64,000 nt of DNA from Chitinophaga pinensis (GTDB lineage: Bacteria > Bacteroidota > Bacteroidia > Chitinophagales > CAMDFR01): the NCBI GenBank assembly GCA_945860705.1, contig CAMART010000006.1, positions 62,001 to 126,000 on the forward strand. Direction: 5' to 3'. The notes under the pieces are model-generated. The model did no database searches and was not told the DNA's origin. It saw nothing but the letters and a program-made list of their open reading frames with translations. Below are positions 43,466 to 48,695 of the stretch, one piece after another (the first letter of the stretch is position 1; every line of letters starts with the position of its first letter). Position numbers and translations under genes: made by a program.

Positions 43466-44491
43466 ATGAAACTAGTTTATAATTCTTCAACAGCCAACAG
43501 CCAACAGCCAACAGCCAATAAAAAACCAGTAGTATTTAATCAAATAAAAATCATATTATTTATGTTTTTATTTATAAGTGCTACTACTAAAATCTCTCAA
43601 GCTCAAATTTATTCTAATGGTGTCACTACAATATCTGGAGATAATACCGGTATTGGTATCAATACTCCTACAGCTAGAATGCAGATATATAGTAATGTAG
43701 CAAGTGGCAGTACTCCTCACTTAAAATTTACAAAAGACATGCTTACTAGTGGAGGTGGAGGCTCGTTTGTCACTAAGTCAGCTGAATGGACAGTAGATGG
43801 TACTTATTTTGAAATGAAATTTTTGAATATTAATTCAGATAATTCTCAAATTCAATTGTTAGGATTGCATAGAGATTTTGTAAAAGTATATGCGCCAAGT
43901 TTTATAGTAAATAGTAATTTTAAAATCACTCAAGATGGTGATGTAGGTATAGGAACACTTACACCAGATGCAAAATTTCATATGCCCAATGGACAGTTTC
44001 ACATGAATAATGGCTCTATAAAACTGGATTATGGATTACTAAACTTAGGAACAGGACCTTTGCTATCTGGCAATAAACTTCAAGTAGATGGAGGGAATGT
44101 AAAGATAACCAATGGTAAATTAGTAGTAGGTAATGTACCTAGCTTACCAGCAGGGTTTTCTATTTATGCAAAAGATGGTATACTTACAGAAAGAGTAAAA
44201 GTAGCAGTAGCAAGTACTGCAGATTGGAGTGATTTTGTATTTGACAAAAATTATAAATTATTACCAATAGCTGATCTGAAAACATATATTCATACAAATA
44301 AACACTTACCCTCAGTTCCATCTGCAAACGAAGTTGTAAGCAATGGTGTAGACCTTGTAAAAATGGATGCCACTTTGCTACAAAAGATAGAAGAACTTAC
44401 TCTATATACAATAGACCTATACCAGAGCAATGAAAAGCTTAAAGCTGAATTAGCGATACTACAAGCTCAGATTAATAATCTTAAAAAATAA
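43466..44491 (+). CDS. Secreted tail-fibre-like protein with C-terminal coiled coil; heptamer repeat near its start
   Basis: The 341-residue protein has a hydrophobic signal at residues 26-45 (QIKIILFMFLFISATTKISQAQ). It belongs to a Bacteroidota group with short GIGTxxPxAKFHM repeats (GIGINTPTARMQI, GIGTLTPDAKFHM), then LTERVKVAVASTADWSDFVFDKNYKLLPIADLKTYIHTNKHLPSVPSANEV and a C-terminal coiled coil (LLQKIEELTLYTIDLYQSNEKLKAELAILQAQINNLKK) similar to phage tail-fibre chaperone ends. The 5' end contains four perfect AACAGCC units, so the residues before the signal (SQQPTAN) are set by the copy number. It heads a seven-gene same-strand block to 48695. Confidence 0.75.
   Translation: MKLVYNSSTANSQQPTANKKPVVFNQIKIILFMFLFISATTKISQAQIYSNGVTTISGDNTGIGINTPTARMQIYSNVASGSTPHLKFTKDMLTSGGGGSFVTKSAEWTVDGTYFEMKFLNINSDNSQIQLLGLHRDFVKVYAPSFIVNSNFKITQDGDVGIGTLTPDAKFHMPNGQFHMNNGSIKLDYGLLNLGTGPLLSGNKLQVDGGNVKITNGKLVVGNVPSLPAGFSIYAKDGILTERVKVAVASTADWSDFVFDKNYKLLPIADLKTYIHTNKHLPSVPSANEVVSNGVDLVKMDATLLQKIEELTLYTIDLYQSNEKLKAELAILQAQINNLKK
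43489..43516 (+). repeat. Heptanucleotide repeat (AACAGCC) x4 inside the 5' end of the gene at 43466
   Basis: Four exact copies of AACAGCC lie 23 nt after the ATG and before the signal-peptide codons. Seven is not a multiple of three, so gain or loss of one unit would shift the frame. Confidence 0.9.
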
Positions 44492-44495
44492 GGTT

Positions 44496-45134
44496 ATGAA
44501 AAAATTGCATTTATTATCATTGAGTATATTTCTCAGTTTAATTAGCTATGGACAAAATGACTATATCTATAAAATAATTGATTCTACAATTATTCAAGAC
44601 TCTTCATTGTTTGGTGCTCAAATAGAAATAGATATAGATAATGATGATATTATAGATATGACTATTGACTATGTTTATACTGATGAAAGTGATTCAGTAA
44701 GTTTTGAAGATACAACATTTTATGTAGTCAGCAAGTTAGATATTTCTTCTATTATGTTTGATGATTATCAATTGGCATTCATAATTCATGATATGAATGA
44801 AGAACCTACAGATAGCACATTCGATGCACTACCAAAAGAGCCATATGAATATATTGATCATACTGCAAACTGGAGTACAGATTTTGCAGGAGCTTACCAA
44901 CTTTATTTTGGTCGTTCAGTAAATACTAGCTCAGGTATAGCATATGAAGGAGCTAATTTTAATAAAGATATTAAATATTACCCTTTTAGAATAAATATGC
45001 CACAAAACAATACAGATAATTGGTATTATGGATGGATACAGTTAGAACATAAAGATGGATATATACATATTGAAGATTTATTTCTAAATTTAGTACCTGA
45101 TGAAGGAATACATGTAGGTCAAACATCAAAATAA
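44496..45134 (+). CDS. Secreted acidic protein of unknown function
   Basis: I do not recognise it. The 212-residue protein has a signal peptide (MKKLHLLSLSIFLSLISYGQ) and is very acidic in its first half (EIDIDNDDIIDMTIDYVYTDESDSVSF), which may bind Ca ions. The second half has the pattern NTDNWYYGWIQLEHKDGYIHIEDLFLNLVPDEGIHVGQ, a beta-rich ending found in surface proteins that report a property of a secreted unit. It starts 4 nt after the preceding stop and 10 nt before the lipoprotein array. No T9SS signal is seen. Confidence 0.7.
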   Translation: MKKLHLLSLSIFLSLISYGQNDYIYKIIDSTIIQDSSLFGAQIEIDIDNDDIIDMTIDYVYTDESDSVSFEDTTFYVVSKLDISSIMFDDYQLAFIIHDMNEEPTDSTFDALPKEPYEYIDHTANWSTDFAGAYQLYFGRSVNTSSGIAYEGANFNKDIKYYPFRINMPQNNTDNWYYGWIQLEHKDGYIHIEDLFLNLVPDEGIHVGQTSK

Positions 45135-45144
45135 ATATTTTTAT

Positions 45145-45465
45145 ATGAATCAAATCAAGTACATAATACTATTACTAATTACTACATTGTTTTTCAGTTC
45201 TTGTAAAAAATGTTGGGAATGTGAGTTTCAATATTACAAAACGAGCTATACCAAAGGTAGTAGTACAGTGATAGTAGAAGCTAAAGGAACAGGAGCAGAT
45301 TATGATAGTCTTTTAAAATATCAAAGCATGGGCTATATGTATGATTCTTTGCTTGAATATAATCCTTCTAAGATAGAAGAGTATTGTGGTACAAAAAAAG
45401 AGATGGAAACAGATATTAATGAAAATAATATAAACGATAATAAATCATGTCATCCAGTAAAGTAA
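45145..45465 (+). CDS. Small Cys-rich lipoprotein, first of four tandem paralogues
   Basis: Not a family I recognise. The 106-residue protein has a lipobox (FFSSC) directly followed by KKCWECEF, so the lipidated Cys is three residues before a C-x2-C pair. Later comes EEYCGTKKEMETDINENN and the end CHPVK. The pattern CxxC ... EYCG ... CxPxK returns in the next genes. Four Cys remain for disulfides or metal binding after lipidation. The next gene starts inside the CHPVK codons (ATG at 45447), a 19-nt overlap. Confidence 0.8.
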   Translation: MNQIKYIILLLITTLFFSSCKKCWECEFQYYKTSYTKGSSTVIVEAKGTGADYDSLLKYQSMGYMYDSLLEYNPSKIEEYCGTKKEMETDINENNINDNKSCHPVK

Positions 45466-45779
45466 AAAAAATATTTTTTAAAATCATACTGCTATTTTCG
45501 GTATTATCTTTCAGCTCTTGTAAAAAATGCTGGGAGTGCCAGTTCAAACAGTATAAAGCAAGATATTCAAATGGAGTAAATACAGTCATTGTAGAAGCAG
45601 AAGGAAATATAGCTTACATGAATGTATATTACGAATATGATGCAATGGGTTATTATGAAGATAGTATTATCACAGATAAAATTATTACCGAAGAATACTG
45701 CGGTACAAAAAAAGAAATGGAAATAGATATCAATAAAAACAATACAACACTTGATAAACAATGCTATCCAATAAAATAA
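45447..45779 (+). CDS. Small Cys-rich lipoprotein, second paralogue
   Basis: The 110-residue protein repeats the pattern of its neighbour: lipobox SFSSC, then KKCWECQF, RYSNGVNTVIVEAEG, EEYCGTKKEMEIDINKNN and the end CYPIK. It is the copy most like the first (same KKCWEC and EYCGTKKEME). Its N-terminus MSSSKV is translated out of frame from the codons for the end of the first gene, and the next gene starts inside its own CYPIK codons (ATG 45761), again a 19-nt overlap. No separate ribosome site is visible, so reinitiation is likely. Confidence 0.8.
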   Translation: MSSSKVKKIFFKIILLFSVLSFSSCKKCWECQFKQYKARYSNGVNTVIVEAEGNIAYMNVYYEYDAMGYYEDSIITDKIITEEYCGTKKEMEIDINKNNTTLDKQCYPIK

Positions 45780-46096
45780 AATATACGATTACAATAAGTA
45801 TCATTCTACTAGCTGTATTATTTTTTTATAGCTCATGTAGTAAATATTGTGTTCAATGCAAAACGATGCATCGAACATATTTACTTCATAAAGGTATAGA
45901 TACGATAGAGTTTGAAACATTTGGTAAATATGAAAATATACAATTAGATTTAAATAATAAATTGATAAATGAAAATTATAGATATATAACTCAATTATAT
46001 GACAGTATTTATTATGAAGACTATTGTGGTAATAAAGAAATTGAAATTTTAAAATCATCAGACCATGCAAAAAAATATTGCTATCCTTTGGATTAG
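45761..46096 (+). CDS. Small Cys-rich lipoprotein, third paralogue (diverged)
   Basis: The 111-residue protein has the lipobox FYSSC, then SKYCVQCKTM (C-x2-C), EDYCGNKEIEIL and CYPLD at the end, so all conserved Cys positions remain although other sequence has drifted. The N-terminus MLSNKI reads from the end codons of the second gene. The next gene starts at 46065, 32 nt before its stop, within the codons before CYPLD. Confidence 0.78.
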   Translation: MLSNKIKYTITISIILLAVLFFYSSCSKYCVQCKTMHRTYLLHKGIDTIEFETFGKYENIQLDLNNKLINENYRYITQLYDSIYYEDYCGNKEIEILKSSDHAKKYCYPLD

Positions 46097-46370
46097 TATA
46101 ATCATATTATTTACTACATATTCATGCAAAAACTATAATTGTATTGAATGTGAATGGAGATATTCTGCTGGACCATATTATAATTTAAATACAAATGATA
46201 CAGTAGTATTAACTTTAAGAAATGAATATGTTTTAGATACTCTTGAAAAATATTATTCTATCGGATATGTTAAAGTACCAATAAATGGTAGTCACAACCT
46301 TGTAAAATTTGAATATTGTGAAAAGGATAACAATTATTATTTATATAGTCAATATATTGATTGTTATTAA
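46065..46370 (+). CDS. Small Cys-rich lipoprotein, fourth paralogue (most diverged)
   Basis: The 101-residue protein has the lipobox TTYSC, NYNCIECEW (C-x2-C), VKFEYCEKDNNYY and a final Cys in DCY. It keeps the spacing of the Cys pair and EYC but loses the CxPxK end, matching its position as last of the array with no gene overlapping its end. The 770-aa T9SS gene starts 12 nt after its stop. Confidence 0.72.
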   Translation: MQKNIAILWISIIILFTTYSCKNYNCIECEWRYSAGPYYNLNTNDTVVLTLRNEYVLDTLEKYYSIGYVKVPINGSHNLVKFEYCEKDNNYYLYSQYIDCY

Positions 46371-46382
46371 AAATATAAAATT

Positions 46383-48695
46383 ATGAAAAAAGTAATAATT
46401 AGTATTTTATTATTGGGAGTATTTAATATTATATACTGTCAATTATTTAACTATACAAATCATTTAGAGCAATATTGGAACTATAGGTATGCACTGCTGG
46501 GCGATGCTATAGATCCAAACTATTATAGATGGGAGCCAGGTTTTGTAGAAGTAGGTAGTGAATCAGGTACTAGCATCCCTATGTTTGTACGAAAAAGAAT
46601 CATTAAAGCTGATGCTTCTTTCCCTTATGACTGGGCATATCTTAATACTTATGATGGTTTGTTTAATCCAAATTATTATGGTAAAGATACTGGAGGTTCT
46701 TGTTCAAATCTTGGAATATATCCATGTGAAGAATTGCCTTGCGATCCAATTATTCCTCAAGTAAAGTCTGGAATTAATGTTTGGTCTGATGCTCCTACAG
46801 ATTTAGGTAAGTATATGCAAGTTCTAGCTACTGAATACGAATTGCTTCGCAGAGAAAATAATCCTGCAAGGTATGCTACCTTGCAAGAGATAAAATACAC
46901 ATTAGATGCGGTTACAAGAATGGATTTATTTGCAGAAGCATACTATTATAATGATCCTTCAAGAGCTTCATTAAATGGCTACTTCTATAGAGATGATGTT
47001 CCAGCTAATTTTTCTACTACAGGTTGCAAATTTGGATGTGCACCAGATTTTAGCTCGCCTGGTGTTGGCTTACCTAAACCTCAGCCATTTGATTATAATG
47101 ATTTTACACTTCAGTCATCTACAGGTTCTTGTTCCGAAGGTGGGGATGAAGAAGCTTGTGATGGAGGTGGTCATTTTCAACATGGTCATTTTAATGAAGA
47201 AAGTCATGATCAAATGATAAAATTGATTCAAGGATTGGCTTTTATAGTTAAATATGTTCATGTTGATGGAGTTGATGATGATGCTAGAAATCATATACAT
47301 AGAATGATTAAGTATTTACAAGGTCCTTTAGGTTTATATATGCTTTATAGACCTGATGGTACCCAAGTTTGCCGTGGAGGTCAATCTATCTGGTATTCTA
47401 CTCCTTTATTGGGAATTCAAGAAAAATGGGGCAATGGAGCTGAAGCAATTGGTATTCCAGTAGCTGCATCTAATTCTCCAGTTTGGAATGCTTCACAGCT
47501 TTTCTTTTTCGATCCCTTTGCTAGGTTAGGTAGAATTCCCGTTGGTACTATTTATAGAAGAAGTAGTGGAGGTCGTTCAACAGTTGCTCCTTTTAGTCTT
47601 GAATTATTTTCAAATTTATATATTTTAAATGATGATTACTCTAAAGGGATTTTTCCTATACCACCTCGAACAAGAAGACCTTTATTAACTGGTATGTCAG
47701 TAGGTTATACGAGAGACATCCCTTGTGTAAATAAGCCAGTTGAATATATTTATGATATTACTTTAGAGTTGATGGCATCAAATTTACATGATTATAAATC
47801 ATTCACTCCTAAGATATTTGTAGAGAATATGTTAAATAAAATATCTTTTAAAGGATATACTTCTCATATGGCATATGAATGGAGTGAACCACTATTTGGA
47901 TGTGAACATGAATCAAGGTTTTATTACGTACCAAATCAAGATTGTGAGCCTAGTGATATAAATAGTAGAGAACATCTAGAAAGAAATGGATTGCAGTATA
48001 TGTTGATGTTCAATTTATATTGTCTTACTTATGGAAAATCTATTTTTGATGCAGCAAGTGACAAAGTGTATAATGCATATATGCCAATTTATGATAGAGT
48101 GATTACACATGAATTTCCTTATACAAGTACAAATTATATAGCACCAGTAGAAATCAATAACTTAAATATAGAAGCAGCAAATTCGCTATATATAGATTGT
48201 AAAATAAAATCAGATGGGCGCATCAATTTTACTGCACCACATACTATTATAGGTCCAAACTTTGGTACTGAATTAGGAGCAGTTGTAAATATCACTAATG
48301 AGCGAATGAAGTGTGATGCTAATTTTGTAAAAGAGTATAGACCACTAGCTACACACTATAGAAGAGCAAATCCTAATCCTACAGAAGAAGTTGAATATAT
48401 GCCAAACAATGAAACACTAGACCTATCAAAACTAGAACATTATATAAAAGTATTTCCAAATCCATCCAATAATGAAATAAATATAGGAATAGCAGTACTT
48501 AAGAATGAGAATTGTAGTATAGAAGTTTTTGATATGTATGGAAGATCAATAAAAAATATAGCCAATCAAATAATACTTGAGCGAGGAGCTACAGATTTCA
48601 AACTATACAAAAAAGATTTTACTTCAGGAAACTATTTAGTAAAAATAATTATTGGAGACAATGTAGAAACTAAGAAGATTTGTTTTGTAGATTAA
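46383..48695 (+). CDS. Large secreted protein of unknown function with T9SS signal
   Basis: I do not recognise a domain in the 770-residue protein. It has a signal peptide (MKKVIISILLLGVFNIIYC), a Cys-containing first half (GGSCSNLGIYPCEELPCDP, TGCKFGCAP) and a His/Glu-rich segment HFQHGHFNEESHDQMIKLIQGLAFIVKYV at about residues 260-300 that could bind metal. Helical repeats around it recall alpha/alpha-barrel enzymes. Residues about 690-770 (IKVFPNPSNNEINIGI to TKKICFVD) are a type A T9SS sorting domain. It closes the seven-gene block and may use the lipoproteins encoded just before it. Confidence 0.7.
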   Translation: MKKVIISILLLGVFNIIYCQLFNYTNHLEQYWNYRYALLGDAIDPNYYRWEPGFVEVGSESGTSIPMFVRKRIIKADASFPYDWAYLNTYDGLFNPNYYGKDTGGSCSNLGIYPCEELPCDPIIPQVKSGINVWSDAPTDLGKYMQVLATEYELLRRENNPARYATLQEIKYTLDAVTRMDLFAEAYYYNDPSRASLNGYFYRDDVPANFSTTGCKFGCAPDFSSPGVGLPKPQPFDYNDFTLQSSTGSCSEGGDEEACDGGGHFQHGHFNEESHDQMIKLIQGLAFIVKYVHVDGVDDDARNHIHRMIKYLQGPLGLYMLYRPDGTQVCRGGQSIWYSTPLLGIQEKWGNGAEAIGIPVAASNSPVWNASQLFFFDPFARLGRIPVGTIYRRSSGGRSTVAPFSLELFSNLYILNDDYSKGIFPIPPRTRRPLLTGMSVGYTRDIPCVNKPVEYIYDITLELMASNLHDYKSFTPKIFVENMLNKISFKGYTSHMAYEWSEPLFGCEHESRFYYVPNQDCEPSDINSREHLERNGLQYMLMFNLYCLTYGKSIFDAASDKVYNAYMPIYDRVITHEFPYTSTNYIAPVEINNLNIEAANSLYIDCKIKSDGRINFTAPHTIIGPNFGTELGAVVNITNERMKCDANFVKEYRPLATHYRRANPNPTEEVEYMPNNETLDLSKLEHYIKVFPNPSNNEINIGIAVLKNENCSIEVFDMYGRSIKNIANQIILERGATDFKLYKKDFTSGNYLVKIIIGDNVETKKICFVD

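Follow-up and report, generated by a model that had tools for sequence, protein, structure and literature searches.

Four overlapping genes encode small Cys-rich lipoproteins that may be dedicated to the secreted protein encoded directly downstream of them. This protein, P0005, ends in a type IX secretion system (T9SS) sorting domain and is called here a YWN protein, from the YWNYRY motif conserved where it begins. In our tentative reading, the array consists of outer membrane lipoproteins with two-disulfide domains, which would likely serve the YWN protein as a periplasmic tether, chaperone, or assembly partner. The observations from which this reading starts are the gene anatomy, the gene overlaps, the lipoprotein family, a second cassette on contig C2, the recurrence of lipoprotein genes before YWN genes, and the even Cys counts. 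On sequence grounds, we regard the array and the gene module around it as a good lead of moderate interest.

Anatomy of the lipoprotein array

The four ORFs of the preliminary description were all recovered at the reported location (Table 1), with the lipobox, C-x2-C pair, and E-Y-C motif that had been noted. The order within all four proteins is signal peptide, lipobox Cys, C-x2-C, E-Y-C, and last Cys. When the whole window (the entire 64 kb stretch of DNA analysed) was scanned for ORFs of 80–140 aa with a lipobox and C-x2-C, exactly the four array starts were returned, and no such ORF was found across five mononucleotide-shuffled windows. By pattern, every array protein has the hydrophobic signal peptide and lipobox Cys of an SPII substrate, and we infer that all four are lipidated. 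Between lipoproteins 1 and 2, dN was 0.36 against a dS of 1.56, a loose value near saturation, which indicates that they are selected at the protein level. The gene overlaps would couple translation and thereby keep the amounts of the lipoproteins in step. Scans for promoters and terminators gave sites no more numerous than in shuffles.

Table 1. Features of the seven-gene block in the window
Feature	Position	Strand	Description
P0007, 341-aa secreted GIGT/KIEEL-type protein	43466..44491	+	first gene in the run
P0006, 212-aa secreted protein without family match	44496..45134	+	paralogue in C2 cassette
Lipoprotein 1	45145..45465	+	106 aa; putative lipid Cys20, C-x2-C at 23/26; position-1 lineage
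Gene 1/2 overlap, 19 nt	45447..45465	+	ATG of gene 2 includes the first two bases of the invariant last-Cys codon of gene 1
Lipoprotein 2	45447..45779	+	110 aa; 51–52% identical to lipoprotein 1, as its local duplicate; predicted beta-beta-alpha-beta-alpha-beta domain
Gene 2/3 overlap, 19 nt	45761..45779	+	geometry as gene 1/2; also c1/c2 in C2 cassette
Lipoprotein 3	45761..46096	+	111 aa; pairs with second lipoprotein of C2 cassette
Gene 3/4 overlap, 32 nt	46065..46096	+	c2/c3 of C2 cassette: 29 nt, equal phase
Lipoprotein 4	46065..46370	+	101 aa; pairs with third lipoprotein of C2 cassette
P0005, 770-aa YWN protein	46383..48695	+	signal peptide; T9SS type A sorting domain, residues 690–766

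The proteins had been described as belonging to no recognised family, and database searches agreed: none of the four reached a curated family cut-off in Pfam, NCBIfam, or PHROGs or matched a PDB family, and their best Pfam score was 15.5 bits where 25 were required. PADLOC returned one weak match, of lipoprotein 1 only, to part of a CARF model (E 5e-4). This match was judged to be chance, and a defence role was rejected. A phage or mobile origin was also rejected, as neither the lipoproteins nor YWN matched a PHROG family and no YWN relative was found in viral contigs. The alignment of the lipoproteins offered no segment of sufficient conservation to scan such contigs with.

A second cassette in the same genome

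Contig C2 (G000, 102055–106334) carries another cassette of this layout. It comprises genes for a 219-aa protein, a 151-aa membrane-type protein, three overlapping lipoproteins (c1 to c3), and a 746-aa YWN protein. The two YWN proteins are 45% identical, and the 219-aa protein, encoded upstream of the lipoproteins, is 27% identical to P0006 (E 5e-19). No GIGT/KIEEL gene was found beside the C2 cassette. The lipoproteins of the two cassettes were compared by global alignments scored against shuffles in which every Cys was kept fixed. Lipoproteins 1 and 2 of the window paired with C2 lipoprotein 1 (z 8.9), lipoprotein 3 with C2 lipoprotein 2 (z 9.5), and lipoprotein 4 with C2 lipoprotein 3 (z 8.2), whereas lipoproteins 3 and 4 of the window showed no likeness to each other beyond the shuffles (z -0.2). 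A tree gave the same positional groups with supports of 94/85, 97/97, and 97/91.

The overlaps also match between the cassettes: those that follow position 1 measure 19 nt and share one phase, and the one ahead of the last gene measures 29 or 32 nt and uses the other phase. In all three 19-nt overlaps, the ATG of the downstream gene runs across the codon for the invariant last Cys of the gene before it. The positional pairing and the matching overlaps thus indicate that the array consists of three old, ordered lineages and one local duplication, that of lipoproteins 1 and 2. The preliminary description had read the four copies as a series decaying from left to right. The likeness of copies 1 and 2 held, but copies 3 and 4 are separate old lineages with counterparts of their own in the C2 cassette rather than decayed remnants, and the decay series is ruled out by the pairing. 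The presence of several positional lineages suggests non-equivalent subunits rather than an extra dose of one protein.

Cysteines, predicted fold, and membrane side

The minimal form of the family is C-x2-C followed by two further Cys (C-x2-C ... C ... C), and the number of Cys after the lipid Cys is even in 36 of 41 relatives. A third Cys pair, formed by a Cys near the end of strand 1 and another in GYxC, was present or absent as a pair in 23 of 24 sequences (17/0/1/6). The p-values of these two patterns (4e-7 and 5e-5) are too small, since the sequences are related. The even counts and the joint gain and loss of the third pair favour disulfides over metal binding, so that of the two alternatives proposed earlier, a disulfide-stabilised or a metal-binding domain, the latter became the weaker option. 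The Cys domain is thus probably disulfide-stabilised. Among the departures from the common form, c1 has an odd Cys count and lacks the third Cys, and in lipoprotein 1 of G097 the third Cys has been lost together with the leading Cys of C-x2-C. A VKOR oxidase was not found in the genome.

AlphaFold2, run with the four window sequences, predicted a beta-beta-alpha-beta-alpha-beta fold with a mean pLDDT of 78 (81–94 over the core, residues 31–90), this being the best of five models that ranged from 43 to 78, three of them poor, with an alignment of 4 sequences. No fold match with E <0.001 was obtained in the PDB or the viral library.

Starting at the lipid Cys, the sequence reads CKKCWEC in lipoproteins 1 and 2, CSKYCVQC in lipoprotein 3, and CKNYNCIEC in lipoprotein 4. 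The lipoprotein export signal (LES) of Bacteroidetes consists of a positive or polar residue followed by two acidic residues within +2 to +6 (PMC5080379). LES-bearing surface lipoproteins are of the signal peptidase II type, as the array proteins appear to be, but none of the latter has a K-(D/E)2, Q-A-(D/E)2, or S-D-D-type signal at +2 to +6 (PMC5080379), and an acidic pair at +3 to +6 is absent from all four. The published signals come from other families and may not be those of this host; SusD, a source from which a host-specific signal might be taken, was not found in the genome. The lack of a published-type signal points to lipoproteins that face the periplasm and goes against the earlier proposal that they are displayed from the membrane.

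The YWN protein and the secreted-protein block

The array lies inside a run of seven genes, all on the forward strand, which are separated by gaps of 4–12 nt or overlap. The earlier statement that a block of secreted proteins ends here in a 770-aa T9SS protein agrees with both the gene layout and the sorting-domain match. P0005 carries a type A sorting domain (Por_Secre_tail, PF18962 / TIGR04183) that scored above the curated cut-off (E 9e-10 in Pfam, 6.8e-10 in NCBIfam). The translocon protein SprA is present at full length (2434 bits) and the T9SS is intact in this genome. P0005 thus resembles T9SS type A cargo in its sorting domain and in the SprA of its genome. It differs from such cargo in its 680-residue N-terminal part, which had no match in Pfam, NCBIfam, or PDB sequences, and in its association with lipoproteins that are no known T9SS parts. 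The four lipoproteins themselves have no C-terminal T9SS sorting domain in Pfam or NCBIfam.

The predicted structure of YWN had a pLDDT of 31 with a shallow alignment, and it is only a hunch, from the helix pattern, that the protein is an (alpha/alpha)-barrel. Cys 250, 330, 507, and 644 are shared by the close group of YWN proteins, the first two being rarer in the wider family. These Cys are possibly linked to those of the lipoproteins.

At the other end of the block, P0007 has a GIGT-type motif and a KIEELTLY coiled-coil end ('LLQKIEELTLYTIDL'). It gave a weak tail-fibre match in PHROGs (E 0.0054), and neither P0007 nor nine similar genes matched Peptidase_S74 in Pfam.

Distribution of the lipoprotein family

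When the 398 genomes of the order were searched with a profile built from 15 lipoprotein sequences, 50 contained members (E ≤1e-3), the weaker ones aided by their signal peptides. Lipoproteins of the DTV type, searched by their mature part (E ≤1e-5), were found in none of 345 sampled class genomes other than this one, and this type looks confined to the order. Solitary copies belong to the wider family, as do an 8-Cys type and the G149 array of five genes. Solitary members away from any YWN gene were present in G132, G178, G103, and G109 and as a singleton on C20, which indicates that YWN is not required by all family members. The tandem order reported for the array was retained in part: the arrangement recurs in relatives, but with anything from one to four copies, and some relatives are solitary.

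The array of G149 (L115:6340-7984, C15) comprises five tandem, mostly overlapping genes of the wider family and has no adjoining YWN gene. The solitary 8-Cys relative occurs in this genome (L013:8206-8523) and in a sister species (L109:6208-6525), and is flanked in both by galT-like and aspartate carbamoyltransferase-like genes.

Genes upstream of YWN across the order and class

Within the order, 33 of 398 genomes gave a YWN match (E ≤1e-5); within the class, a five-sequence profile detected the protein in 52 of 395 (E ≤1e-10). Three further genomes of the genus (84–93% complete) gave no YWN match. Cys-rich lipoproteins are encoded directly upstream of YWN in G172 (two), G163 (two, plus a single one at a different locus), and G097 (two), as well as in G153, where two precede a YWN gene detected as a fragment only, and in G006, where the lipoprotein is more divergent. 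Elsewhere in the class, this slot is often occupied by a different small lipoprotein, typically with CKKYPxGP or CKKYPEN; one of these alternative proteins gave a lipocalin match below the cut-off.

A small lipoprotein was encoded immediately upstream of 16 of 36 YWN genes and of 0 of 18 other T9SS genes (Fisher p 4e-4), and a GIGT/KIEEL gene was present in the upstream run of 21 of 36 and 1 of 18, respectively (Fisher p 3e-4). The 36 YWN loci, each with a same-strand upstream gene, were selected by score from many genomes and the 18 controls all came from this genome; the lipobox was judged by pattern, which left at least 3 likely lipoproteins (L151, L154, L157) uncounted. As judged from these neighbourhoods, the lipoprotein slot upstream of YWN is variable, and the array fills it in a way specific to this lineage. 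One could go further and suppose, more speculatively, a class-wide T9SS module of a GIGT/KIEEL protein, a slot filled by apparently unrelated lipoprotein families, and YWN, in which the expanded, non-equivalent Cys-rich set would here provide cargo-specific periplasmic adaptors for the T9SS; we consider this unlikely but worth stating. Literature searches found no paper on a GIGT/KIEEL–lipoprotein–YWN module, and the larger module and the positional lineages of the lipoproteins are what is new here.

Several of these loci showed further features. In G701 (L158:6883-9057, C4), a 1462-aa YWN relative follows three tandem lipoproteins of 230–232 aa, near-identical in appearance at either end. A tandem pair of CKKYPENTLWF lipoproteins lies before the YWN gene of G509 (L155:5122-6184, C24), and slot duplication therefore also occurs with another lipoprotein family. 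Two ORFs make up a split YWN gene in G006 (L058:6160-8625, C27), which is probably a pseudogene, and short YWN starts were also seen at L060, L061, and L066. Upstream of the short YWN at L061, a 682-aa KIEEL-type protein (365-2413; G090 C28) contains SprB repeats (Pfam E 2.5e-41), which links this protein type to a gliding adhesin repeat.

Proposed role and alternative explanations

We propose that the lipoproteins would be anchored in the outer membrane and face the periplasm, that each may form a compact domain with two disulfides, and that they may bind YWN in the periplasm before or during its export by the T9SS, as its tether, chaperone, or assembly partner. What we infer in this proposal is the lipidation, the disulfides, the side of the membrane, the coupled translation, the contact with YWN, and the role. 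We favour it because two cassettes are maintained with positional pairing and equal overlaps, and because the lipoproteins recur before YWN genes; the even and paired Cys, the intact T9SS with SprA, and the compact predicted mature domain also argue for it. It is weakened by the solitary family members, the lack of VKOR, the odd Cys count of c1, the shallow lipoprotein model, and a neighbour control drawn from one genome.

The main rival, which we hold to be unlikely though worth keeping in view, is that the array proteins serve the envelope in general and belong to a widespread small CxxC family of lipoproteins, recruited into this operon or simply expanded in it without a specific tie to YWN. 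Many members are indeed solitary, one of them in an equal gene context in the sister species G002, and the five-gene tandem array at L115 has no YWN gene. This rival accounts poorly for the DTV-type members that lie directly before YWN in two cassettes and in several distant genomes, and for the maintained positional lineages. The class-wide recurrence of the order GIGT/KIEEL gene, lipoprotein gene, YWN gene, together with the weak tail-fibre match of P0007, would fit surface-exposed parts of a fibre or adhesin complex formed with the GIGT/KIEEL and YWN proteins. Such a complex is doubtful, however, as no published-type export signal follows the lipid Cys and the C2 cassette has no adjoining GIGT/KIEEL gene. 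Because the commonest form of the family has four Cys, two of them as C-x2-C, a four-Cys metal site in a metal- or redox-active domain was also considered. We give it a small chance, since the Cys come in pairs (4, 6, or 8), and since G097 lipoprotein 1 and c1 have lost positions of such a site.

Small, divergent genes in tandem next to one for a secreted protein, with varied families in the slot, recall poly-immunity loci, and the surroundings of T9SS substrates are enriched in TANFOR polymorphic toxins with their immunity genes (PMC7073777). The likeness lies in the T9SS neighbourhood and in the small genes beside a secreted protein. It nevertheless seems rather improbable that the lipoproteins protect the cell against YWN as a T9SS-exported antibacterial toxin: YWN ends in a T9SS sorting domain and has neither a polymorphic C-terminal toxin domain nor any other toxin domain or match, no cognate toxin domain was found beside the lipoproteins, these matched no immunity family, and the gene order is reversed, the lipoproteins lying upstream whereas described immunity genes lie downstream (PMC7073777). 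Small Cys-containing lipoprotein genes in Bacteroidota also encode the precursors of RiPP–lipoprotein hybrids, the DAG-RiPPs (PMC12636315). That the array encodes lipidated RiPP precursors whose Cys are modified by an MNIO enzyme is close to refuted, as no such modifying enzyme (MNIO, PF05114) was found in the whole genome, and the motifs of the four proteins differ from those of DAG-RiPPs, CPxCGxG and EGKCG both being absent.

To our knowledge, hardly any cargo-specific partners of type IX secretion are known. A recurring operon that joins a T9SS protein without a recognised fold to an exchangeable lipoprotein slot provides a concrete, testable set of candidates, and many small Bacteroidota lipoproteins that are unnamed in the searched libraries would thereby be placed in a defined family.

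Similarity of the YWN gene ends

Over their final 87 bases (48609–48695 in the window; G000:C2:106247-106332, L012), the two YWN genes are 97% identical in DNA, and a third copy of this stretch was not found in the genome. The two proteins are 70% identical over the last 60 residues, against the overall value given above. The sorting-domain end of YWN looks like the product of a recent gene conversion.
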